10,905 nucleotides of DNA from Dyadobacter fermentans (GTDB taxonomy: Bacteria > Bacteroidota > Bacteroidia > Cytophagales > Spirosomataceae), in assembly GCF_019924045.1 (NCBI RefSeq), contig NZ_JAHXBN010000030.1, positions 1-10,905 of the forward strand. Reading direction: 5' to 3'. This document shows, one piece after another, positions 243-10,905 of the stretch. The position numbers and the translations under genes were made by a program. The notes under the pieces were generated by a model. It made no database searches, was not told where the DNA came from, and worked only from the letters and a program-made list of their open reading frames with translations. Position 1 is the stretch's first letter, and every line of letters begins with the position of its first letter.

Positions 243-250
243 TACTTTTG
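243..250 (+). promoter_or_regulatory. candidate Bacteroidota -7 element (TACTTTTG)
   Basis: TACTTTTG matches the Bacteroidota -7 consensus TAnnTTTG exactly and ends 18 bases before the ATG at 269. No good TTTG -33 box is visible about 19-21 bases upstream, so the assignment is tentative. If it is real, transcription would start near 255-258, giving a very short leader. That would exclude the TTG at 248 as the translation start and support the ATG at 269. Confidence 0.35.
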
Positions 251-268
251 AGCAAAAAACAAACCGCT

Positions 269-1207
269 ATGAACACCCTGAAACGCCACAGATACCGTAA
301 CGCCGCCGCGATCGTAGCAGGCATTCTTTTTACCAGTTTCGTTGTATTGCAAGTCAACAGCCCGAAGATTGAAAATCCGCCGGTAACCTCGGAATTTCAC
401 GGGCCGGAAGAGGTAACCCGCATCCTGAAACGCTCATGCTACGACTGCCATTCCAACGAAAGCAACCTGCGCTGGTACGATAAAGTGGCGCCATTCTCCT
501 ACAAAGTCGCTGCCGATGTGGAGGAAGCTCGGAAGCGGTTCAATTTTTCGGAATGGGACAGTATTCCGAAGGCCGATCAGGAAGGCAAGCTCTGGTACAT
601 CGTCAATATGATCGACGCCGGTCGGATGCCCCTGCCTGAATATGCCGCTGCGCACCCGTCCGCAAAGGTGACGCCCGCCGAGCTCGCGATCCTGAAAAAC
701 TATGTGACCAGCATTTCCCGTAAGCATTATGCGGCAGGCGATACCGCCGCGATCGTCGAAAAGCCCAAACTGTCGCACATTCAGACTTCCATCAACGGCA
801 TCCCCTATTTCGATGACTACAAAAACTGGAAGGTGATCAGCTCCACCGGCCGCCCCGACAATGGCACCTCTCGCATTATCTATGGAAACGACGTAGCCGT
901 AAAAGCCCTGGAAGAAAACACCATCCTCCCCTGGCCCGACGGCGCGGTGATCGTAAAAGTGGTATGGAACAGCCAGGCACCCGACGCCGACGGCAATGTG
1001 AAGCCCGGCAATTTCAACAACATCCAGATCATGGTCCGCGACGCCAAAAAATTCGCAGAAACCGAGGGCTGGGGGTTCGCAAGGTTCAGCGGCCTCGATT
1101 TGAAGCCTTACGGAAAGACGGCAGCGTTCGCCACGAGCTGCATCAACTGCCACCAACTCGCTAAAGGGACCGGATTTGTGTTCGATATTCCAACGAAGCC
1201 GAGGTAG
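269..1207 (+). CDS. haem-binding domain / cytochrome P460-like exported protein
   Basis: The product is 312 aa from the ATG at 269. An in-frame TTG at 248 would add seven residues, but it overlaps the candidate -7 element, and the ATG puts a basic stretch directly before the hydrophobic segment. An N-terminal signal/anchor (about residues 10-29) implies a periplasmic protein. The first domain has CYDCH (C57, C60, H61), followed by aromatic residues and an MPLPEY segment, the pattern of the Haem_bd family. The second domain (about 185-312) resembles cytochrome P460: an IIYGND strand, a KVVW strand and a terminal CINCH (C291, C294, H295). Two c-type haems are therefore expected (inference). The role is probably periplasmic electron transfer or a peroxidase/oxidase-like activity; substrate unknown. 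The next gene encodes another exported protein with a CxxC motif. Family assignment is fairly sure, function is not. Confidence 0.85.
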   Translation: MNTLKRHRYRNAAAIVAGILFTSFVVLQVNSPKIENPPVTSEFHGPEEVTRILKRSCYDCHSNESNLRWYDKVAPFSYKVAADVEEARKRFNFSEWDSIPKADQEGKLWYIVNMIDAGRMPLPEYAAAHPSAKVTPAELAILKNYVTSISRKHYAAGDTAAIVEKPKLSHIQTSINGIPYFDDYKNWKVISSTGRPDNGTSRIIYGNDVAVKALEENTILPWPDGAVIVKVVWNSQAPDADGNVKPGNFNNIQIMVRDAKKFAETEGWGFARFSGLDLKPYGKTAAFATSCINCHQLAKGTGFVFDIPTKPR

Positions 1208-1216
1208 ACTTAGCGT

Positions 1217-1286
1217 GACCGCCGACCATAGAGCGTAGACCATGGACCGCCGACCATGGACCATAGACCGTCGATTGGCGATGTCG
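1217..1286 (+). repeat. GACCNNN heptad array, forward, after haem-protein stop
   Basis: Ten consecutive 7-bp units begin nine bases after the stop codon. They read GACCGCC, GACCATA, GAGCGTA, GACCATG, GACCGCC, GACCATG, GACCATA, GACCGTC, GATTGGC, GATGTCG; the last two are decayed. The phase is kept throughout. An inverted block of the same heptads follows at 1318-1345, so the transcript could fold into an imperfect stem. Short heptanucleotide arrays are known in other bacteria, for example the cyanobacterial STRR sequences; whether these are related is unknown. Confidence 0.8.
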
Positions 1287-1314
1287 CATAGCACCAAATT
1301 CCTCAATTCACCCA

Positions 1315-1396
1315 AACCATGGTCTGCGGTCCATCTTCCATGGTCAACTATTCAAATGATCACCAGACCCGACTCGGTCGGCGGTCAAAACAACCC
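1315..1396 (-). repeat. inverted heptad block and duplicated leader, copy A
   Basis: Four heptads in reverse orientation (NNNGGTC: CATGGTC, TGCGGTC, CATCTTC, CATGGTC; 1318-1345) are followed by a non-repetitive spacer containing ATGATCACCA. Two more reverse heptads (CTCGGTC, GGCGGTC; 1373-1386) and an AAAACAA tail complete it. The same layout with similar sequence recurs at 2218-2311 before the lipoprotein gene. This copy ends about 27 bases before the DUF1223 start, so it must be part of that gene's leader or promoter region. Confidence 0.75.
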
Positions 1397-1422
1397 AATC
1401 AACCATTAAATCACCAAAAATC

Positions 1423-2208
1423 ATGAAAACCAACATCATCACTTCGATTTTTCTGTCTCTTGGCATTTCGATCTCTGCTATGGCTTTTAATGCAAATACT
1501 GATGACAATTCTGCCAACAAAGGCTTCGCGGTCGTCGAACTCTTCACCTCAGAGGGCTGTTCCAGCTGCCCGCCGGCCGACAAGCTCCTTGCGAAAATCC
1601 AGGAGGAGCACGCAGGCAAGCCGGTTTACATCCTGGCATTCCACGTCGATTACTGGAACCACCAGGGCTGGCGGGATGTGTTCAGTGAAAAAGACTTTAC
1701 AAAACGGCAGTACCAATATGCGAGCTGGCTCCAACTCGAAACGGTTTACACGCCGCAGGTAGTCGTAAATGGCAGGCACGAGCTGATCGGCTCACAGGAA
1801 GAAACACTCAGACGAGCCCTGAATATTGAACTGAACTCCGCAGCCCCGGCACGATTAAATGCGGAAGCACAAATCGAAGGCGGAAAGCTGAAACTCACTT
1901 ACCAGGCATCAAATGCCGCCCGAAATACCGTATTGCAGGTTGCATTGGTGCAAAAAGTGGCGCATACGATGGTGAAGCGGGGCGAGAATGCGGGCCGGTT
2001 ACTACCCCACGTGCAGATCGTCCGCCGCATTCAAAGTTTCCCTGCGGCGACCGCCGGTAATGTAGCGGTGAACCTCCCCGAAGGCTTCAACCCCACTGAA
2101 TGGGAAGCGATTACGTTCCTGCAAAACACACAGAACGGTAGCATTGTGGCCGCTGACAGACCTGTTATTGACGGCCGACCGCAGACCGCCGACGGCCGAG
2201 CGCGTTAA
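1423..2208 (+). CDS. DUF1223 thioredoxin-like secreted protein
   Basis: The product is 261 aa. The N-terminal hydrophobic stretch (residues 5-21, ending in SAMA) is a probable signal peptide. VVELFTSEGCSSCPPAD (about 37-53) is the hallmark of the DUF1223 family: a thioredoxin-like fold with a CxxC pair (C46, C49), followed by FHVDYWNHQGW and a TPQVVVNGRHE strand with the cis-Pro-like TPQ. This suggests a periplasmic thiol-disulphide protein; its substrate is not known. The last 12 residues (250-261, DGRPQTADGRAR) are encoded by a run of GACCNNN heptads, so the C-terminus is probably not native. The start ATG lies directly after the duplicated leader repeat. The upstream haem protein with CxxCH motifs makes a role in the same envelope compartment plausible, but this is inference. 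Confidence 0.88.
   Translation: MKTNIITSIFLSLGISISAMAFNANTDDNSANKGFAVVELFTSEGCSSCPPADKLLAKIQEEHAGKPVYILAFHVDYWNHQGWRDVFSEKDFTKRQYQYASWLQLETVYTPQVVVNGRHELIGSQEETLRRALNIELNSAAPARLNAEAQIEGGKLKLTYQASNAARNTVLQVALVQKVAHTMVKRGENAGRLLPHVQIVRRIQSFPAATAGNVAVNLPEGFNPTEWEAITFLQNTQNGSIVAADRPVIDGRPQTADGRAR
2170..2204 (+). repeat. GACCNNN heptad array inside the DUF1223 3' end
   Basis: Five phased heptads (GACGGCC, GACCGCA, GACCGCC, GACGGCC, GAGCGCG) form the last codons of the DUF1223 gene; the TAA follows one base later. They belong to the family found just after the haem-protein and response-regulator stops. Here the array lies before the stop, and the reading frame runs through it. Confidence 0.8.
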
Positions 2209-2217
2209 AGTAACGTC

Positions 2218-2311
2218 AAACCATGGTCGATGGTCCATCGTCCATGGTCAAATATCCCAAACGATCACCATACTCCGCCGGCGGTCAGCCGTCCGCGGTC
2301 AAAACAAACCA
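2218..2311 (-). repeat. inverted heptad block and duplicated leader, copy B
   Basis: Four reverse heptads (CATGGTC, GATGGTC, CATCGTC, CATGGTC; 2222-2249) are followed by a spacer with ACGATCACCATAC. Three more reverse heptads (GGCGGTC, AGCCGTC, CGCGGTC; 2280-2300) and an AAAACAAACCA tail complete it. The layout and much of the sequence match 1315-1396, spacer included. It ends seven bases before the lipoprotein ATG. Confidence 0.75.
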
Positions 2312-2318
2312 TACTCTC

Positions 2319-2816
2319 ATGAAAAACCTCATAGCAGTCTTCGTTTTCGCTGTATTCGCACTGACAAGTTGCCAGCAGCCGCGCAAGTTCACACCTGCAC
2401 CCGAAACCATCTTCGACGATCATGGACTGCACGTGATCACCTCCTTCCACAACGACCGTACCCGCACGATTTCGGTGCTTTACGGCAATGATGAGGCCCT
2501 CGCACATGCGGGTGGCGAGCGCGCCGGTACGCCCGGCGTGACGACGCGCGGCGTGGCGACGCCCGGCGTACCGGCGCCCGGCGAACTTTTCAAGCTGGTG
2601 ACTTGGGACCTGAAACAAAACCCGCTCTGGTTTGGCAGTGATATCAATGGCGGCTTGCTATCGGTGGAAACGGTGGTTGTTTCCGCCGGCGAATCGGGTC
2701 CGGCGATCGAATACACGATTGACAATTCGGCTCAGAAAACGGGCAAAAATGCCGTTTCAAGCAATGCAGAGCGGATTAGTTTTATATTTGCCCAACGGGC
2801 GTCTGTTTTCCCGTAA
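2319..2816 (+). CDS. small lipoprotein with P460-like core and 5-aa repeat
   Basis: The product is 165 aa from the ATG at 2319. The reading frame opens further upstream, but that part is the repeat leader. A lipoprotein signal ends in LTSC with the acceptor cysteine at C18. The core has ISVLYGNDEAL (51-61), then FKLVTWDLKQNPLWFG (91-106) and LLSVETVVV. This parallels the IIYGND...KVVW order in the P460-like domain of the first gene, so a related fold is inferred. No CxxCH is present, so covalent haem binding is not expected. Residues 71-90 are four tandem 5-aa units (TPGVT, TRGVA, TPGVP, APGEL) encoded by a 15-bp GC-rich repeat, probably an expanded loop. It lies 18 bases before the sensor kinase gene, so co-transcription is plausible. 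Specific function unknown. Confidence 0.75.
   Translation: MKNLIAVFVFAVFALTSCQQPRKFTPAPETIFDDHGLHVITSFHNDRTRTISVLYGNDEALAHAGGERAGTPGVTTRGVATPGVPAPGELFKLVTWDLKQNPLWFGSDINGGLLSVETVVVSAGESGPAIEYTIDNSAQKTGKNAVSSNAERISFIFAQRASVFP
2529..2588 (+). repeat. 15-bp minisatellite within lipoprotein gene
   Basis: Four 15-bp units each centre on ACGCCCGGCGTG or a close variant (ACGCGCGGCGTG, GCGCCCGGCGAA). The unit length is a multiple of three, so the frame is kept and the product carries a Thr/Ala-Pro-Gly-Val pentapeptide series. The stretch is much more GC-rich than the surrounding gene. Confidence 0.8.
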
Positions 2817-2834
2817 ACCGGTTCACGAACAATC

Positions 2835-3854
2835 ATGGTACAAAAGACATTCAGGGTTTCGGCGGTAATCGTCTGGCTGAGTTCCGTGTCGCTGGGCATA
2901 CTCACCACGGTGCCCAAAATAGCCGAGAAGCATCCCAATGGTTTTGAAGCGATTACCAGCGCGCTGATCACCACCTCATTCACATTGTTTGTGTGGTATT
3001 TCAATATCTACTCGCTGCCCAAGTTCACGAAGGAGCATTCATCCTCGGGCTTTTCGTACCCGCTACTGTTCCGTAGCATCGCCATCGGCATGGTGCTCAT
3101 GTTCCTGATGGTAGGCGCACAAAAACTGGCTATCCCTTCGCTGGACTTCGGGCCGGTGGTACTGATGTTCGAAGTACGGGGGATCATGATCAACCTGATC
3201 TTCTATATGCTGCTGCATTTGCTTTACCAGACCCATCGCAACCAACAGGTGATCCTCGAACTTGAACGCAGCAAGGCCGACAACCTCGGCGCACAGTATG
3301 AACTGCTGAAACAACAGGTCAACCCGCATTTCCTCTTCAACAGTCTCAGCACCCTGAAATCCATGGTGGAACTGGAAGACAAGAACAGCGTCGACTTCAT
3401 ATTGAAATTATCTGACTTTTACCGGTTTACATTAGAAAACAGAAAACTCGACCTGATCAGTCTTGCGGAGGAAATTGAAATACTCGACGCTTACATGTAT
3501 TTGCTGAAAGCACGGTTTGAAGAGGGAATCGAGCTCGAATACCGGATCCCGGAAGACGTTTACCGTACTTGGATACCGCCGTTCACACTGCAACTGCTCG
3601 TCGAAAACTGCATCAAGCACAATGTGGTTTCGCTCGATAAGCCGCTTCACATTACCATATATGAGGAGAACGGCCTGCTGATCGTCGAGAACCCGCTGCA
3701 ATTGAAGAAGAACCCCGAGCATTCCACCGAGGTAGGGCTCGACAATATCAACCGGCGGTATTTCCACCTGCTGAACCAAAAAATACAAATCGAAAACGAC
3801 CAGGAATATTTCAGGGTCAAACTGCCGCTCATTCATGAAAATCGTAATCATTGA
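2835..3854 (+). CDS. LytS-family sensor histidine kinase
   Basis: The product is 339 aa. Four hydrophobic segments (about 6-26, 36-60, 75-100, 105-131) place the N-terminal half in the inner membrane, with no sizeable periplasmic domain. A short coiled-coil-like linker leads to QVNPHFLFNSL, the His_kinase (PF06580) phosphoacceptor motif with H165. The ATPase part has LLVENCIKHN (N258) and VGLDNINRRY (G301); the first glycine box is reduced to IVENP, which is common in this family. The kinase should autophosphorylate and pass phosphate to the LytTR regulator encoded next. The two genes overlap by 20 nt, so translation is probably coupled. The signal is unknown; the lipoprotein just upstream could be an accessory sensor, which is inference. 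Confidence 0.92.
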   Translation: MVQKTFRVSAVIVWLSSVSLGILTTVPKIAEKHPNGFEAITSALITTSFTLFVWYFNIYSLPKFTKEHSSSGFSYPLLFRSIAIGMVLMFLMVGAQKLAIPSLDFGPVVLMFEVRGIMINLIFYMLLHLLYQTHRNQQVILELERSKADNLGAQYELLKQQVNPHFLFNSLSTLKSMVELEDKNSVDFILKLSDFYRFTLENRKLDLISLAEEIEILDAYMYLLKARFEEGIELEYRIPEDVYRTWIPPFTLQLLVENCIKHNVVSLDKPLHITIYEENGLLIVENPLQLKKNPEHSTEVGLDNINRRYFHLLNQKIQIENDQEYFRVKLPLIHENRNH

Positions 3855-4602
3855 AGACGAAATCAAAACGGCCCGCTCGCTGGCACAGCTCATCACGACG
3901 CTCCGGCCCGAAGCCGAGGTGGTAGCCACGATCCAGAGCGTAGAGCGGGCCGTTTCCTACCTCACCGAAATGCCCCAGCCCGACCTGATATTTATGGACA
4001 TCCAGCTTTCGGACGGCCTTTGTTTCGAAATTTTCGAGTCGGTGAAAGTGGTACCGCCGGTGATATTCTGCACTGCCTATGACCATTATGCGATCGAGGC
4101 ATTCAAGGCTAATGGCATCGATTATCTGCTCAAACCATTTAAAAAAGAGCATATTGAAGGCGCGCTGGACAAGCTAAGCCAGCTAAAAAGCTATTTTTCC
4201 ACCGAAAAACCGCTGGTACCCGAGCTCGAATTACTTCTGAAAAGGCTCGGCGAGCCCGAAGGCAAAAAGAGCTTCCTCGTTTTCAGGCAAAACAAATACA
4301 TCACGATCAAAACCGAGACAATCGCCTTCTTTTACATTCACAATGAAACTACCTGGCTGCGCACATTCGATAACCAGGATTACACCATCGCGCAGCCGCT
4401 GGAAGAAGTGCAGGGCATGGTGGCGTCGTCACAGTTTTACAGGCTCAATCGCCAGTATCTGGTCAATTTCGATGCGGTGAAGGAAGTGGAGCATTATTTT
4501 TCGCGGAAGCTCTTTATCAAACTCACGATCCCGACGCCCGAAAAGCTGCTGATAGGAAAGGAAAAAGTGAGCCATTTTCTCGGCTGGCTGGAAAATCGCT
4601 GA
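3835..4602 (+). CDS. LytTR-family DNA-binding response regulator
   Basis: The product is 255 aa. The receiver domain (about 1-118) has the acidic pair E7/D8, phosphoacceptor D55 in LIFMDIQLSDG, T80 and K100 in DYLLKPF. A linker leads to a LytTR DNA-binding domain (about 147-252), recognised by FLVFRQNKYITIKTETIAFFY and the FYRLNRQYLVN strand-turn. It is the cognate partner of the overlapping LytS-type kinase. Targets cannot be read from the window; LytTR proteins bind short direct repeats, and I found no convincing pair upstream of the neighbouring genes. The TGA is followed at once by three GACCNNN-type heptads and then a strong terminator. Confidence 0.93.
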   Translation: MKIVIIEDEIKTARSLAQLITTLRPEAEVVATIQSVERAVSYLTEMPQPDLIFMDIQLSDGLCFEIFESVKVVPPVIFCTAYDHYAIEAFKANGIDYLLKPFKKEHIEGALDKLSQLKSYFSTEKPLVPELELLLKRLGEPEGKKSFLVFRQNKYITIKTETIAFFYIHNETTWLRTFDNQDYTIAQPLEEVQGMVASSQFYRLNRQYLVNFDAVKEVEHYFSRKLFIKLTIPTPEKLLIGKEKVSHFLGWLENR

Positions 4603-5710: not shown

Positions 5711-6286
5711 ATGATTATGAAAAAACGTTTCTCCCTTCTCTCGTTCATGTTTGTGGTGGTGTTGGCTGGCTTCTCGGGCCGTGCAGTGGCGCAGGACACA
5801 CAAACCGACAACCATCAGATCTCTGTGGTTGTACCTGTCGTAGCTTTGCTCGACCTAGAAACCTCTGCAACCAGAAATTTTACAGCCAGTTTTACCAAAC
5901 CGACCAACGACGAAGCAGGTGAAAAGATCCTCGCCCCAGCCGATAACAGTACCATCTGGCTCAACTACACATCGATCCAGGCAGGAACCACTACCAAGAA
6001 AGTAAATGTGAAAGCCAGCGCATTAGTCGAGGGCGTGGACATCCACATCGTAGCCGCAGCCGCTGCGGGAGGCGCTGGTACAAAGGGAACTCCGACAGCC
6101 GGCGGCTTCAACCTGACGACAGCCGATCAGGCACTCATTACCGATATCGGAAGTGCTTATACGGCTTCGGGACCGACCAGCGGCCACCAGCTTACTTATT
6201 CTTTCATCGCTGCCGACGCCAATTATGCAAACCTGCGCTCCGGCACGACGAACGTGACAGTGACCTATACGCTCGCGGATAACTAA
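5711..6286 (+). CDS. secreted pilin-like subunit 1
   Basis: The product is 191 aa; ATGs at 5711 and 5717 are both possible (MIMKK). A signal peptide ends at about AVAQ (residue 28). The mature protein is small, rich in Thr, Ala, Val and Asn, without cysteine, with alternating hydrophobic strands as in beta-sandwich subunits. It begins with HQISVVVPVVALLDLE (35-50) and ends with YANLRSGTTNVTVTYTLADN (172-191). Both ends, plus a central NSTIWLNYTS strand and HQLTYSF, recur in the subunit encoded at 9796-10341, so the two are paralogues. The Ala/Gly stretch at 115-123 is unique to this copy. First gene of the operon, eight bases before the chaperone-like gene. It is likely the major exported fibre or surface subunit; this rests on context and strand pattern, not on a recognised family. 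Confidence 0.75.
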   Translation: MIMKKRFSLLSFMFVVVLAGFSGRAVAQDTQTDNHQISVVVPVVALLDLETSATRNFTASFTKPTNDEAGEKILAPADNSTIWLNYTSIQAGTTTKKVNVKASALVEGVDIHIVAAAAAGGAGTKGTPTAGGFNLTTADQALITDIGSAYTASGPTSGHQLTYSFIAADANYANLRSGTTNVTVTYTLADN

Positions 6287-6294
6287 GATCCTGA

Positions 6295-7077
6295 ATGAAA
6301 TGGATTGCCTTACTCAGCATGATGCTACTGATGCCCCGGTACACGCGGGCATCGGTAGTGATCTTGAACGGATTGACGCACAACCACAGCATTCCGACGC
6401 CCGCCACGAAGATCCAGGGGGCCATCAAGGTTAAAAATGATGGCGGAAAAGACTCCCGTATACTGGTCTACCGTCAGGACCTCGTTTCGCAATGCGATCA
6501 GCAGGCGGCTTACCCGGAGATCGGCAGCCACGGCAGGTCGCTCGGTGCTGGACTAAAAACCAATGTCGACGAGCGGGTGATCGCTATCCATGAAGAGTAC
6601 GACGTGCGGTACACGATCGAAGCCGATCCGAACCGCCAGCCGGGCACTTATTGGGAGGTTATTATGGTGGAGGTGGCCGATCCTGTGCGCGAAGAGGCAC
6701 ACAACGGCATTCATGTCAATTCGAAAGTACGCTACGCCATTCAGGTGATCGTGGACATCGGGCCGGTGGAAGGGCCGCCCCTGTCCTATGAAAAGGTCAT
6801 CTACGAAAAACTTTCCGCCGAGCAATCGGTCCTGAAAATCGTGCTGAAAAACAACGGCGCGTACGGCGCACGTACGAATGTCATCCTCGAAGTTTACGAC
6901 AGCAACGGTAACAAACTCAAAACCACGCAGCCCAACACCCGGATGCTTTACCCGGGCAATTGCAGCACGTTTGAGATACCCATTACCGACATACCGAAAG
7001 GCAAGTACGACTGCGTGATCATCGCCGACACCAAAAAAGACCTGTTCGGTTCGAACATTTCTTTACAGATTGAATAA
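6295..7077 (+). CDS. periplasmic chaperone-like protein (PapD-like architecture)
   Basis: The product is 260 aa, with a signal peptide ending near TRA (residue 19). Two Ig-like parts are suggested. In the first (about 20-155), IQGAIKVKNDG and SRILVYRQDL are followed by VRYTIEADPNRQPGTYWEVIMVEV, the order of conserved strands in pilus chaperones (a KN-x strand, then G-x-Y-W before the next strand). In the second (about 165-260), SVLKIVLKNNG leads to NVILEVYDSNGNKL and a final NISLQIE strand. The length fits chaperones of the PapD/CooB type. Cysteines are at 67, 223 and 240. I see no certain match to a named family, and proteins with paired Ig-like domains of the WxL-associated kind (DUF916/DUF3324) are an alternative comparison. 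Its position between a subunit gene and the barrel gene supports a chaperone role. Its 3' end overlaps the next gene. Confidence 0.65.
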   Translation: MKWIALLSMMLLMPRYTRASVVILNGLTHNHSIPTPATKIQGAIKVKNDGGKDSRILVYRQDLVSQCDQQAAYPEIGSHGRSLGAGLKTNVDERVIAIHEEYDVRYTIEADPNRQPGTYWEVIMVEVADPVREEAHNGIHVNSKVRYAIQVIVDIGPVEGPPLSYEKVIYEKLSAEQSVLKIVLKNNGAYGARTNVILEVYDSNGNKLKTTQPNTRMLYPGNCSTFEIPITDIPKGKYDCVIIADTKKDLFGSNISLQIE

Positions 7078-9799
7078 TCCTCCTCTCCCATTGTACCGGC
7101 TCATCGCCATATTGCTTTTGCTGACAGGATTGCATGGTTACGGGCAAACACCTGTAACCGTGAGCCTGGCCAATGTGCCGGATACCGTGGTTCCCGGCGG
7201 GCATATCACGTTGTTTTTTGATGTAAAATCTGCCTCACCCCTACCTGATTCGCTGCGGGAAGAAATACAGCTGCCCGAAAAATGGCGGCTTCTTTCCCAG
7301 CGACGTCCGGTAAGGACCGCCGGCGACCAACGGGTACGTTACTTTTACGTAATAGGCACGCCGGCAGGCTGTGCTTCGGGTGAGTACCTGGTGAAATTCC
7401 GGATTTATGCAAATGCCCAGGAGATGGCCGCGCAGGTGCCGCTCACGATCGGGCAAATCCGCAACATCGAGCTCTTTGTTGTGACGCAGCCCGAATTTGT
7501 CCGCGAAGGAGACACACTCCGGCTAACTTACATGATCCGCAATGCGGGCAACAATGCCGAAAAATTCCATCTGAAATCCGACCACGGCAAAATCGAGCAG
7601 GTAACCGACAGCCTGACCCTCGAACCCGGGGCCGGCACCCATGTGGCCGTCTCACAAGTCATTCCGGTCACCGACAACAATGCGTGGCAAGCGTCGTCGA
7701 ACCTTTCGGTGATGATGACAGGCGCCGCCGAGCCGGTGTATTCCGTAACCAGCATACCCGTTTTTTCCTCCAAAGTCAGAAAGATCGACCGCTACTTCCG
7801 CTTCCCGGTGGAAGTGGGCGGTGGATATTTGTCGTATCGCTACGGCGGCAGGGAGGTTACCGCATACCAGTATCAGGCCACGGGCAAGGGATTTATCGAC
7901 CAGAAGGAGCGCCATTATCTCGATTTCGTCGTTCGCGGTCCCAACCAGTTCGTATTTCCGGCGGTGGGCACTTACGACCAGTATTCCCTCGATTACGCCT
8001 GGCGCAAACGTGTGTTTGTCTCAGCCGGCGATTATGTTTTGCAGCTCAACAACCTGATGGAATTCGGTCGCTTCGGACGCGGGCTGCGGGTGGAACAACA
8101 GTTTAAAAAAGTGGCCTACACGGTATTTTACCAGAAAGCCCGCTTTTTTATGAACCAGAAAGAATCGTTCGGGGGCAAGTTTATATACAAATTCAATGAG
8201 TCGGTCCATGTGGGGATGCATTACGCTTCCAAAGATGTGTTTTTCCATCGCCAGCGTTTCTGGTCGCACCTGGCGGGCCTGGCCGCGAACGTCCACACGA
8301 AAGAATTCAACCTGGAAAGCGAAATAAGCGCCGGCAAGGCGATCGGCAAAACCGATTACGGGACATTTCTGCGGCTCCAATTGACCAAAAAATGGATCAG
8401 TATTACGAGCAATGTTATCTACGCAGGCAAGCATTTCTATGGCTTTTACAACAATAGCCGACTGTTCAACAACAATATCGGCTTTAACATCACCCGCAAA
8501 CTGACCATCGGGGCCAGCAACAACTTTTCCGACGTAAACCCCAGCCTCGACGCCAACCTGTACAGCGTTTCGCCCAAAGACCGCAGCTACCTCGGCTACG
8601 TCTCCTTTCAGCCCGACCAGCGTAACCGCTTTTTCCTGTTCTATTCCAAAGCGGAACGTAAAGACCGGCAGCAACCGGCAGCATTCCATTACTCCGAGCA
8701 TTTCAGTAATTTCTCGTACAACCTCACCTCCCCTAAGTTTACGCTCTTTTACCAGGGGCGCTATGGCTATTCCAAGAACCATCTCGCGCCGGACAACAAC
8801 GGCCAAAACGAATCATTTTCAAACCTGGTGCAGCCGGCGGTCCGGCTCTTTCCGTGGATTTGGGTCGGAGGGTACTTCGAGCACCAGCATACCAGCAAGT
8901 TTTCAACTTCCGGCTTGGTCGAAAACTTATTCTTTTACGGGGGGAACGCGCGGATCAACATCAAACGTAATCTGTACGCAAGCTTCCTTTACCGCAACAA
9001 CTACGCCCCCGATGAGCTGTACGTGCGGAGGAGCTTTGTGGACGCATCGGTGGTGCTGGATCTGAAAAGACACGTTTTCTCTTTCTCCGGCGGCCGCTCC
9101 TATATTCCCAATGTGGACAACACCGACCAAAACACGCTGTTTTTCAATATTAAATATGCATTACGGCTGAATGTCCCGCTGGGGCGAAAAAAAAATATCG
9201 GCACGGTAAGAGGGCAACTTACAGGCTTCGGCTACCGCAAGCAGGGCAACCTCATCCAACTCGGCAGCCACAAGTTCATGACCGACAGCACCGGCATGTT
9301 CACTTTCGACGGCGTAGCACCCGACCGGTACTACCTTAGCATTACGCAAAACGAATCGGGCAGCGAGGGCGTGGTGCCCGTCGTACGTATGCCCATGCTG
9401 GTAGATGTGCGCTCCGACAGCCTTAGTGTAGTGGAGATCCCGCTGACGCGCACAGGCAGCATCGCGGGCAGGATCGAATTTTTAAAAGCGAAACAAAATG
9501 GTTTGTCGTCGGTACTGACGGAAAAGCCTGCGGTGCTCGTAAAACTGCATGGTGAAAACGGCAGTTACCTGACCGAACTGAACGATAAAGGCGAATTCTC
9601 GTTCCGGGAAATACGGCCCGGTAGCTGGGAAATATCGGTATTCATTCCCGGCAGTCAGGACCGATTCGTCGTCGAGGATGGTAACCGCCAGCTCACGGTA
9701 GAAACCGACAAGACCCTCGACCTCACGTTCCGGATCAAGCCGAACGAGAAGCGGATCCATTTTTCGGAAAGAAATTTTGAAGTATCTGTCAAAAAATGA
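7070..9799 (+). CDS. usher-like outer-membrane barrel protein with terminal Ig-like domains
   Basis: The product is 909 aa from a TTG that overlaps the previous stop by eight bases. Another TTG at 7091 would start at MYRLIAILLLL and gives an equally good signal peptide; no ATG is suitable. Cleavage is expected near GYGQ (residue 26). Two Ig-like, NEW3-type domains follow (about 27-128 and 129-230), the second with LRLTYMIRNAGNNAEKF. Residues 240-700 are a long series of alternating aromatic beta strands, typical of a large outer-membrane barrel. The C-terminus has two carboxypeptidase-regulatory/CnaB-like domains (about 703-785, with TDSTGMFTFDGVAPDRYYLSI; and 795-900, with LNDKGEFSFREIRPG). 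Classical ushers also combine an N-terminal domain, a barrel and two C-terminal Ig-like domains in 800-900 aa. I see no plug domain. Function as the secretion pore for the flanking subunits is inferred. Confidence 0.7.
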   Translation: MNNPPLPLYRLIAILLLLTGLHGYGQTPVTVSLANVPDTVVPGGHITLFFDVKSASPLPDSLREEIQLPEKWRLLSQRRPVRTAGDQRVRYFYVIGTPAGCASGEYLVKFRIYANAQEMAAQVPLTIGQIRNIELFVVTQPEFVREGDTLRLTYMIRNAGNNAEKFHLKSDHGKIEQVTDSLTLEPGAGTHVAVSQVIPVTDNNAWQASSNLSVMMTGAAEPVYSVTSIPVFSSKVRKIDRYFRFPVEVGGGYLSYRYGGREVTAYQYQATGKGFIDQKERHYLDFVVRGPNQFVFPAVGTYDQYSLDYAWRKRVFVSAGDYVLQLNNLMEFGRFGRGLRVEQQFKKVAYTVFYQKARFFMNQKESFGGKFIYKFNESVHVGMHYASKDVFFHRQRFWSHLAGLAANVHTKEFNLESEISAGKAIGKTDYGTFLRLQLTKKWISITSNVIYAGKHFYGFYNNSRLFNNNIGFNITRKLTIGASNNFSDVNPSLDANLYSVSPKDRSYLGYVSFQPDQRNRFFLFYSKAERKDRQQPAAFHYSEHFSNFSYNLTSPKFTLFYQGRYGYSKNHLAPDNNGQNESFSNLVQPAVRLFPWIWVGGYFEHQHTSKFSTSGLVENLFFYGGNARINIKRNLYASFLYRNNYAPDELYVRRSFVDASVVLDLKRHVFSFSGGRSYIPNVDNTDQNTLFFNIKYALRLNVPLGRKKNIGTVRGQLTGFGYRKQGNLIQLGSHKFMTDSTGMFTFDGVAPDRYYLSITQNESGSEGVVPVVRMPMLVDVRSDSLSVVEIPLTRTGSIAGRIEFLKAKQNGLSSVLTEKPAVLVKLHGENGSYLTELNDKGEFSFREIRPGSWEISVFIPGSQDRFVVEDGNRQLTVETDKTLDLTFRIKPNEKRIHFSERNFEVSVKK

Positions 9800-10341
9800 A
9801 GTATGCAATGCTCATATGCTGTGTTTTGTCGGGCCTGGCCTCGCACGCCCAGGTGGTCGCGAACGTGGACGTGAGCATTTCCATGCCTTCGGTGGCGCTG
9901 GTGGATATTCTGCCGTCGGGCTCCAACAGCGTTACGCTGCAAATGACCGCCCCGACCGAAGCCGGCAATACCGTCGGGACCGGCTCCTCCAATAATACCA
10001 ATTGGCTGATATTCACCTCGGCCGTCACCAGCGGAGGATCACGAAGCATCAAGGGCGACGTGATAGGAACATTGCCCGCGGGTATCCGGCTGCGCCTGGA
10101 CGTATCCGCATATGTGGGCTCGGGGCTGGGCTTCACGGGGGGAAACAGCTACGTCACAGCCAACAAATACCTCACCAACACCCCGGTGAGTTTCATCGAC
10201 AACATTAAAGGCGCCTACACCGGCATCACCTATGGCAGTAATGGTTTCCAGCTAACCTATTCTCTTGAAATACAAGACTATGCCAATATCCGCAGCGGCA
10301 CCTCGAACGTGACGGTGCGTTACACCATGGCCGACAACTGA
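9796..10341 (+). CDS. secreted pilin-like subunit 2
   Basis: The product is 181 aa. The ATG overlaps the stop of the barrel gene by four bases (ATGA). The signal peptide ends at SHAQ (residue 19). The mature N-terminus (VDVSISMPSVALVDIL, 24-39) matches the N-terminal strand of subunit 1, and the C-terminus (YANIRSGTSNVTVRYTMADN, 162-181) is almost the same as that of subunit 1. NNTNWLIFTS (66-75) and GFQLTYSL (150-157) also align. The middle differs: it has no poly-Ala stretch and a Gly-rich loop at 107-117. Same compartment and probably the same fibre as subunit 1, perhaps a minor or adaptor subunit because it lies after the assembly genes. Not assigned to a named family. Confidence 0.75.
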   Translation: MKYAMLICCVLSGLASHAQVVANVDVSISMPSVALVDILPSGSNSVTLQMTAPTEAGNTVGTGSSNNTNWLIFTSAVTSGGSRSIKGDVIGTLPAGIRLRLDVSAYVGSGLGFTGGNSYVTANKYLTNTPVSFIDNIKGAYTGITYGSNGFQLTYSLEIQDYANIRSGTSNVTVRYTMADN

Positions 10342-10817
10342 TGAAGTACATTATCGCCTTCTGCATTGCAAGCCTCGCAACCTTCGCCGCTTCCGCGCAA
10401 ACGATTTCGATCAACAGCGGAACGACGTGGTCTATCCCCTCGCTGTCGTCGACGATCACCAAAGCCGGCAAAAACTATGAGCATATCGAAACCAGCAGCG
10501 CCTCACAGACCCTCCTGAAAGTAAATGCGCTGCTCGCATGGTCTATCACCGCGCACCTCAGCGCAACTTCCAACTGGGACTCCTCGCTTAAACTATCGGT
10601 GCAGCGGACGGGCAATGGCACAGGCATTGCCATCCTCACCGGCGGCACTACCTACATCCAGCTCACCAGTACACCGCAGGCTTTTTTCAACGGCCTGCTC
10701 AACCTCACGGCCCACCGCGATAACATTCCCATACAGTACAAAATCGAAGGGCTGTCGGTAATGCTACCGGTAAAGACTTACACGACGACGGTGACTTATA
10801 CGATTTCGGGGTTGTAG
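10341..10817 (+). CDS. secreted subunit-like protein 3
   Basis: The product is 158 aa. Start and previous stop share one base (TGATG), so translation is probably coupled. The signal peptide ends at ASAQ (cleavage after residue 19 or 20). The mature part is rich in Ser, Thr and Ile and has no cysteine. It ends in a beta hairpin and the alternating strand TYTTTVTYTISGL (146-158), comparable in place and pattern to the NVTVTYTLADN end of subunits 1 and 2. The N-terminal VALLD strand is absent. It loosely recalls spore-coat-U or CS1-like fimbrial subunits, whose C-termini also end in a TVTVT-type strand, but I cannot assign it. Last gene of the operon; a minor or tip subunit is one possibility. 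No large two-domain adhesin gene is present in the window. Confidence 0.65.
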   Translation: MKYIIAFCIASLATFAASAQTISINSGTTWSIPSLSSTITKAGKNYEHIETSSASQTLLKVNALLAWSITAHLSATSNWDSSLKLSVQRTGNGTGIAILTGGTTYIQLTSTPQAFFNGLLNLTAHRDNIPIQYKIEGLSVMLPVKTYTTTVTYTISGL

Positions 10818-10905
10818 GGCCCTGCGGGCCCGACCGCCGACCATGGACCGCCGACGGCCGATCATATGCTGCGCCCGTGCTAAAAATGCCCTGCGGGCCC
10901 GACCG
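10817..10905 (+). repeat. GACCNNN heptads, GGGCCC hairpin and 18-bp direct repeat
   Basis: Starting on the last base of the stop codon, GGGCCC-TGC-GGGCCC (10817-10831) can form a short GC-rich hairpin with no T-run. Five heptads follow (GACCGCC, GACCATG, GACCGCC, GACGGCC, GATCATA; 10832-10866). The 18-bp sequence GCCCTGCGGGCCCGACCG occurs at 10819-10836 and exactly again at 10888-10905, where the window ends, so a second array probably continues beyond it. It is the same family as the arrays at 1217, 2170 and 4601. Confidence 0.75.

Follow-up and report, generated by a model that had tools for sequence, protein, structure and literature searches.

A divergent chaperone–usher-like operon as a probable fibre assembly system of Dyadobacter fermentans and other Bacteroidota

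We analysed a stretch of 10,905 nucleotides from Dyadobacter fermentans (contig NZ_JAHXBN010000030.1; hereafter the window) and found that five same-strand open reading frames (ORFs) at positions 5711–10817, encoding proteins of 191, 260, 909, 181 and 158 amino acids, are best read as a chaperone–usher-like system that assembles fibres by donor-strand exchange and forms a divergent branch within Bacteroidota. The products are three putative subunits (sub1, sub4 and sub5), a two-domain chaperone-like protein and an usher-like barrel, and their genes are separated by an 8-base gap followed by overlaps of 8, 4 and 1 bases. We place the probability that this operon works like chaperone–usher fibre assembly at about 0.75. 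An earlier interpretation of the letters alone (the sequence-only reading) had proposed such an operon from five coupled genes; their order, overlaps and coordinates hold, and barrel layout, chaperone homology and conserved subunit genes now support the proposal itself. None of the five proteins exceeds a Pfam or NCBIfam cut-off, consistent with the earlier remark that no classical motif allows their assignment, and two single-sequence searches of the PDB returned one weak unrelated match and nothing, respectively.

Table 1. Features of the five-gene operon in the window (functional roles are candidates).
Feature	Position	Strand	Basis
sub1: 191-aa subunit	5711..6286	+	signal-like N-terminal stretch, AQ at residues 27-28
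sub1 residues 37-41: alternating hydrophobic N-terminal stretch, candidate donor strand	5819..5833	+	row conservation
sub1 residues 182-188: alternating C-terminal strand V-x-V-x-Y-x-L, candidate chaperone-bound strand	6254..6274	+	row conservation
Two-domain chaperone-like protein, 260 aa, WxLIP/PapD superfamily	6295..7077	+	profile comparisons
Chaperone Arg146: candidate anchor for subunit C-terminus	6730..6732	+	invariant in 40-row alignment A7
Usher-like outer-membrane barrel, 909 aa, TTG start	7070..9799	+	predicted model, Foldseek/VIA comparison
Usher-like residues 27-232: two N-terminal beta domains	7148..7765	+	DSSP of model
Usher-like residues 247-699: 26 predicted barrel strands without inserted plug domain	7808..9166	+	strand count, model
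Usher-like residues 702-906: two C-terminal beta domains, CarboxypepD_reg-like	9173..9787	+	Pfam, DSSP of model
sub4: 181-aa subunit, sub1 homologue	9796..10341	+	phmmer E about 1e-19 to sub1
sub4 residues 24-30: alternating N-terminal stretch, candidate donor strand	9865..9885	+	row conservation
sub5: 158-aa subunit, tentative tip subunit	10341..10817	+	broken N-terminal pattern, C-terminal strand

The five genes form a conserved unit. A scan of named genomes yielded 33 loci, from Dyadobacter, Leadbetterella, Emticicia, Arcicella, Lacihabitans, Flectobacillus, Pseudarcicella, Telluribacter, Runella, metagenome-assembled genomes (MAGs) of Saprospiraceae and Cytophagales and one record named Cellulophaga. 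In 28 of these loci the full set of genes was recognised in the order seen in the window; the 28 span eight named genera, the Cellulophaga record and two MAGs. Three further loci are truncated at contig ends with their remaining genes in order (L016, L024 and L034), in another (L012) the ORFs of the usher and of sub5 are shorter, and the last (L010, Dyadobacter luticola, 6664–10043) is a degraded cluster from which most of the chaperone gene has been deleted. Deletions there have left the last 27 chaperone codons directly behind a piece of sub1, and sub4 matches as two pieces only. One complete locus (L008) has an aberrant sub5 C-terminal end. In Emticicia sp. CRIBPO (L020, 1–10730) the cluster occurs twice in tandem, the first sub1 being cut at the locus edge, and the cluster in the record named Cellulophaga sp. 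BC115SP (L035) is very like that of Flectobacillus L027, pointing to a mislabelled genome or to transfer. We take the conserved unit to be the five genes because the upstream flanks are kept at high identity in just a few loci: the genes for a histidine kinase, a regulator, a haem protein and a DUF1223 protein in seven Dyadobacter loci only, and a lactamase-fold gene in six.

Of 222 genomes in the host's family, 53 have a barrel match at E ≤ 1e-5, or 51 without G025 and G128, whose matches cover C-terminal residues only; its distribution is therefore patchy. In the phylum, a deeper barrel profile matched at least 18 of 395 genomes over ≥450 of the 909 positions, a lower bound given that two candidates were scored per genome. 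The overall phylum count, 103 of 395, was not accepted as a number of systems, being mostly matches to C- or N-terminal pieces. A chaperone profile had matches in 45 of the 395 genomes. Distant loci were taken from 15 of the 20 genomes that matched in another search. Thirteen of these loci (L048–L060) have a barrel gene, and in all 13 the chaperone gene adjoins it; the other two (L061 and L062) show a weak chaperone match and no barrel match at E ≤ 1e-2. Subunit genes, whose absence from homologous loci would have spoken against the sequence-only reading, are present in the 28 named loci and were recognised in 10 of the 13 distant barrel loci (E ≤ 1e-2, some close to the limit). Among 26 chaperone places at E ≤ 1.6e-37, a barrel match lies no more than 500 bases away in 20, 14 of which are profile seeds, leaving 12 other places that divide into six with and six without a barrel match. 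No barrel was recognised at the latter six (L063–L068, five from one genus), although at L065 ORF selection missed the chaperone ORF itself. The five from one genus (L063–L067) are chaperone homologues with neither a barrel nor a subunit neighbour recognised, and may represent another use of the chaperone family.

The clearest homology concerns the 260-residue protein. A profile of 40 diverse chaperone relatives (A7) matched the solved structure of EfmWxLIP1 (PDB 9i25, 9i1y) over both domains at E 5.5e-7, with the next match at 0.088 and no PapD-type chain among the matches listed; the earlier profile, which still contained the weakly related L061 and L062, gave E 2.8e-10 (for A7 these two were left out, L049 was dropped, and P0151 and P0152 were added). 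Judged by profile comparison, the protein is a homologue of Gram-positive WxLIP over both domains, in keeping with the pair of immunoglobulin (Ig)-like domains expected of it. This link is carried by the profiles of relatives because a WxLIP_HBD search of the host genome missed the window's single sequence, returning two weak matches elsewhere. Pfam gave weak matches only across 52 chaperone relatives: WxLIP_HBD was commonest (16 of 52), the models of the DUF916–DUF3324 pair appeared in 16 and 3 of the 52 (best E 2.4e-4 and 0.0026) and in the window's own 260-residue protein not at all, and an Mfa2 match in 1 of 52 (E 0.099) is at chance level. Eight positions, including Trp120, Arg146 and Tyr147, are invariant in A7, and a lipobox-like motif occurs in 1 of its 40 rows. 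One relative, P0152, is labelled Longimicrobiaceae by its source, a family outside Bacteroidota. A passage of PMC10599100 describes WxLIP as two tandem Ig-like domains with a hairpin strand predicted to complete the WxL sandwich; by a word search, the terms chaperone, usher, donor and pilus do not occur in the paper's main text.

A connection to classical chaperone–usher proteins emerges through intermediate families. A second Bacteroidota chaperone branch (A14; 18 rows, from L072–L079 and ten proteins) matched the window's chaperone family at 99.9% over 254 columns in profile comparison, E. coli K-12 chaperones at 94.7% over 191 columns and EfmWxLIP1 at E 3.3e-5. As controls, A14 gave 27% over 12 columns with E. 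coli pilins and 42% over 22 signal-peptide columns with window-type subunits, and subunits against E. coli chaperones gave 0.6%. By these profiles, the 260-residue protein is related to PapD-type chaperones through A14, and the chaperone superfamily spans WxLIP, PapD and the window's branch. For the barrel, the window's family matched eight second-branch barrels (A16, including L076 and L077) at 99.9% over 829 columns; a further set (A17, the L086–L089 barrels with L076 and L077) matched it at 95.2% over 405 columns and E. coli ushers at 58.7% over 253 columns. At four second-branch loci (L072, L073, L074 and L078), a protein of 339–345 amino acids with a C-terminal pilin-like strand lies between the chaperone and barrel genes and is plausibly a two-domain tip adhesin.

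In its predicted overall layout the 909-residue protein resembles an usher, which comprises an N-terminal domain, a 24-strand barrel with a plug and two C-terminal domains. In Foldseek searches with the barrel model (predicted template modelling score 0.56), FimD and PapC usher chains took ranks 1–4 with alignments spanning the whole layout. The two C-terminal domains noted in the sequence-only reading reappear as predicted beta domains, with two stretches of CarboxypepD_reg-like similarity (30.3 bits against a Pfam cut-off of 32.3). As tested, the protein falls outside the usher family model PF00577, which was absent from it at E ≤ 5 and from its own genome at E ≤ 1; across the phylum, PF00577 exceeded its cut-off in 0 of 395 genomes, the E. 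coli control being positive. Many relatives have 892–902 amino acids, so translation may in fact begin slightly downstream of the TTG, by a few codons. Distant barrels at L056–L059 have long extensions at their C-termini, in which several hydrophobic segments occur.

Sub1 and sub4 show a sequence pattern on which donor-strand exchange could depend. The predicted sub1 model resembles chaperone–usher pilins, with weak scores. Across 32 rows, 97–100% are hydrophobic at sub1 positions 37, 39 and 41 versus 9% and 38% at 38 and 40 (the model assigns no strand to residues 37–41), and at the C-terminus 100% are hydrophobic at 182, 184, 186 and 188 versus 0–3% at the positions between. In sub4 the N-terminal figures are 77–100% at 24, 26, 28 and 30 versus 0% between (30 rows). 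Both proteins conserve alternating stretches at both ends. In sub5 the C-terminal strand is present and the N-terminal pattern is broken, at 22 and 24 and then more weakly at 30, 32 and 34; we tentatively regard it as the tip subunit for this reason. Sub1 is probably the main fibre subunit, as its gene opens the operon and is duplicated in four named loci (L021, L029, L030 and L031). In each of the three subunits an AQ, the putative cleavage site, comes after a hydrophobic N-terminus, and a simple lipobox pattern was found in 0 of 32 sub1, 0 of 30 sub4 and 1 of 30 sub5 rows, in agreement with the signal peptides without lipobox first proposed for them. No Mfa/FimA Pfam family matched the subunits, and searching the PDB with a subunit profile gave no relevant match. 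WxL was considered as the subunit family and rejected, with neither a Pfam nor a PDB profile match; matches to NUP210 Ig, DUF1072 and NamA were judged chance, short or under cut-off, although 9 of the 30 sub4 rows again match NUP210 Ig (best 7e-4), which we read as generic Ig likeness.

Together these features suggest a mechanism. All five proteins, with their signal-like N-termini, would be exported by Sec. In the periplasm, the two-domain chaperone would lend a beta strand to an incomplete Ig-like subunit, beside the subunit's conserved C-terminal strand, with Arg146 as the candidate holder of the subunit C-terminus. Chaperone–subunit pairs would then dock on the barrel's periplasmic domains. 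The next subunit would displace the chaperone strand with its own alternating N-terminal stretch and so become linked to the first, a step we infer from the conserved sequence pattern and the fold, and the subunits would leave through the 26-strand pore. The system would share with the chaperone–usher pathway (PapD/FimC, PapC/FimD, FimA/CfaB) its gene order, its signal peptides without lipobox, a predicted layout of N-terminal domains, large barrel and two C-terminal domains, and putative Ig-like subunits with alternating stretches at both ends. Type V (FimA/Mfa lipoprotein) pili would likewise be surface fibres of Bacteroidota, but the sub1 and sub4 rows have no lipobox, no Mfa/FimA family matches, and a dedicated chaperone and barrel are present here.

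This interpretation carries several caveats. By DSSP the barrel model has 26 strands and no plug, unlike an usher, and VIA put the Mtr complex barrel at the top, followed by FimD, so that the usher-like fold anticipated for the barrel is supported by its overall layout and Foldseek matches and not by strand number or plug. Direct profile comparison with E. coli gave no match for the chaperone family (4.4%) or for the barrels (4.1% for A10, and 0.4% in a second comparison), and the subunits showed no membership in a small pilin set; of the profile–profile links sought with chaperone and usher families, those found run through A14, A16 and A17. The E. coli K-12 chaperone, usher and pilin profiles are small (7, 6 and 15 sequences), and a non-match to them is therefore weaker evidence than a match. 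What the analysis shows is that the operon is conserved, that the chaperone has homologues, that the subunit fold has a likeness to pilins and, by prediction, how the barrel is built; secretion and polymerisation into a fibre are inferred. The sequence-only reading also called the operon possibly undescribed. That holds for this branch, and less so for its distant chaperone relatives, since some A14 proteins already bear the automatic NCBI names 'P pilus assembly chaperone PapD' and 'fimbrial biogenesis chaperone'. Among the matches listed from open-licence literature, preprints excluded, no title describes such a system in Bacteroidota, and a passage of PMC4793230 states that the chaperone–usher pathway is not included there.

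The most serious alternative, which we nevertheless consider rather unlikely, is that the operon encodes a very diverged archaic (sigma) chaperone–usher pilus, a known family missed by the models; the mechanism would be the same and novelty alone would differ. Sub-threshold PF00577 matches in six of the 395 genomes (E 1.9e-5 to 0.0058) speak for it, as does L076, where the chaperone scores weakly with PapD_N (8.8e-4), one subunit exceeds the DUF4402 cut-off (3.9e-9) and another stands at SCPU 0.012. In the host genome neither PapD_N nor DUF4402 exceeds its cut-off, and a literature search found no paper on DUF4402. Four of the six sub-threshold places were read (L086–L089); in each a second-branch chaperone stands beside a barrel of 994–1505 amino acids, with subunit genes recognised by profile in two (L086 and L088) and a SPOR domain in three of the four barrels. 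On re-test, L086 and L088 matched PF00577 at 2.2e-4 and 3.2e-4 but L087 and L089 did not at E ≤ 0.1, and the match of the window's barrel family to A17 covers only the second half and C-terminal domains. The plugless 26-strand model and a chaperone family that matches WxLIP, rather than E. coli chaperones directly, also argue against this alternative. A passage of PMC9452303 has archaic systems spanning a wide range of phyla, in favour of this alternative.

Less probable still is that the chaperone–barrel pair exports small beta-sandwich proteins to the surface, where they would stay monomeric or make up a capsule-like coat or short tip complex, with no long fibre. The window holds just three subunit genes and no result here shows polymers, but sub1 and sub4 conserve a candidate donor stretch and acceptor strand that a monomer would not need, and the sub1 duplications also favour a fibre.

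We give little credence to a Gram-negative WxL-like wall system, in which the chaperone-like protein and subunits would form a peptidoglycan-bound complex with the barrel serving only as an anchor. SPOR domains, which bind peptidoglycan, occur in some other distant barrels, but no SPOR match was found in the window's barrel by Pfam and no WxL Pfam domain in 92 subunit rows (E ≤ 1). The operon resembles Gram-positive WxL/WxLIP clusters (DUF916–DUF3324; EfmWxLIP1) in encoding a two-domain homologue with small secreted proteins, and differs from them in having an outer-membrane barrel. The authors of PMC10599100 propose, in a passage of that paper, that WxLIP binds peptidoglycan, and report a transmembrane helix in it, whereas none of the 40 chaperone rows has a transmembrane-like stretch (top 19-residue hydropathy past residue 60, 0.40–1.29 on a simple scale). 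Finally, an Mtr-type conduit or nutrient porin with accessory binding proteins as neighbours is the least probable of all: MtrB has 26 strands and a similar barrel size, but no cytochrome-like gene is among the five, the upstream haem-protein gene lies outside the unit, the N- and C-terminal beta domains are additional here, and the subunits resemble pilins.

Elsewhere in the window, positions 248–4602 upstream encode a haem-binding and cytochrome P460 protein, a DUF1223 protein and a histidine kinase with a LytTR regulator. Interspersed repeats (GACCGCCGACCATGGACC-like and CCATGGTC-like) sit intergenically and at the end of the window (1217–1279, 1313–1356, 2170–2199, 2217–2260 and 10819–10905). 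Promoter and terminator scans of the window stayed within chance level, and Rfam gave no match.

Returning to the chaperone–usher-like reading, its hosts are soil and freshwater bacteria, and its parts are too diverged from classic pilus machinery for databases. Bacteroidota are known mainly for lipoprotein-type pili; if we are right, they also have a chaperone–usher-like route missed by family models. A bolder proposal, which we advance tentatively and with the odds somewhat against it, is that WxLIP and PapD descend from one ancestral chaperone and that the Bacteroidota system is a surviving middle form, in which a WxLIP-like chaperone delivers pilin-like subunits to a 26-strand gate that lacks a plug and relies on its N-terminal beta domains for recruitment and gating; the WxL system would then be a wall-bound cousin of pili. 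Should the fibre assembly reading hold, the plugless barrel would offer a test of the purpose of the usher plug, and the operon would provide a sequence bridge from Gram-positive WxL-interacting proteins to pilus chaperones, making their common origin testable.

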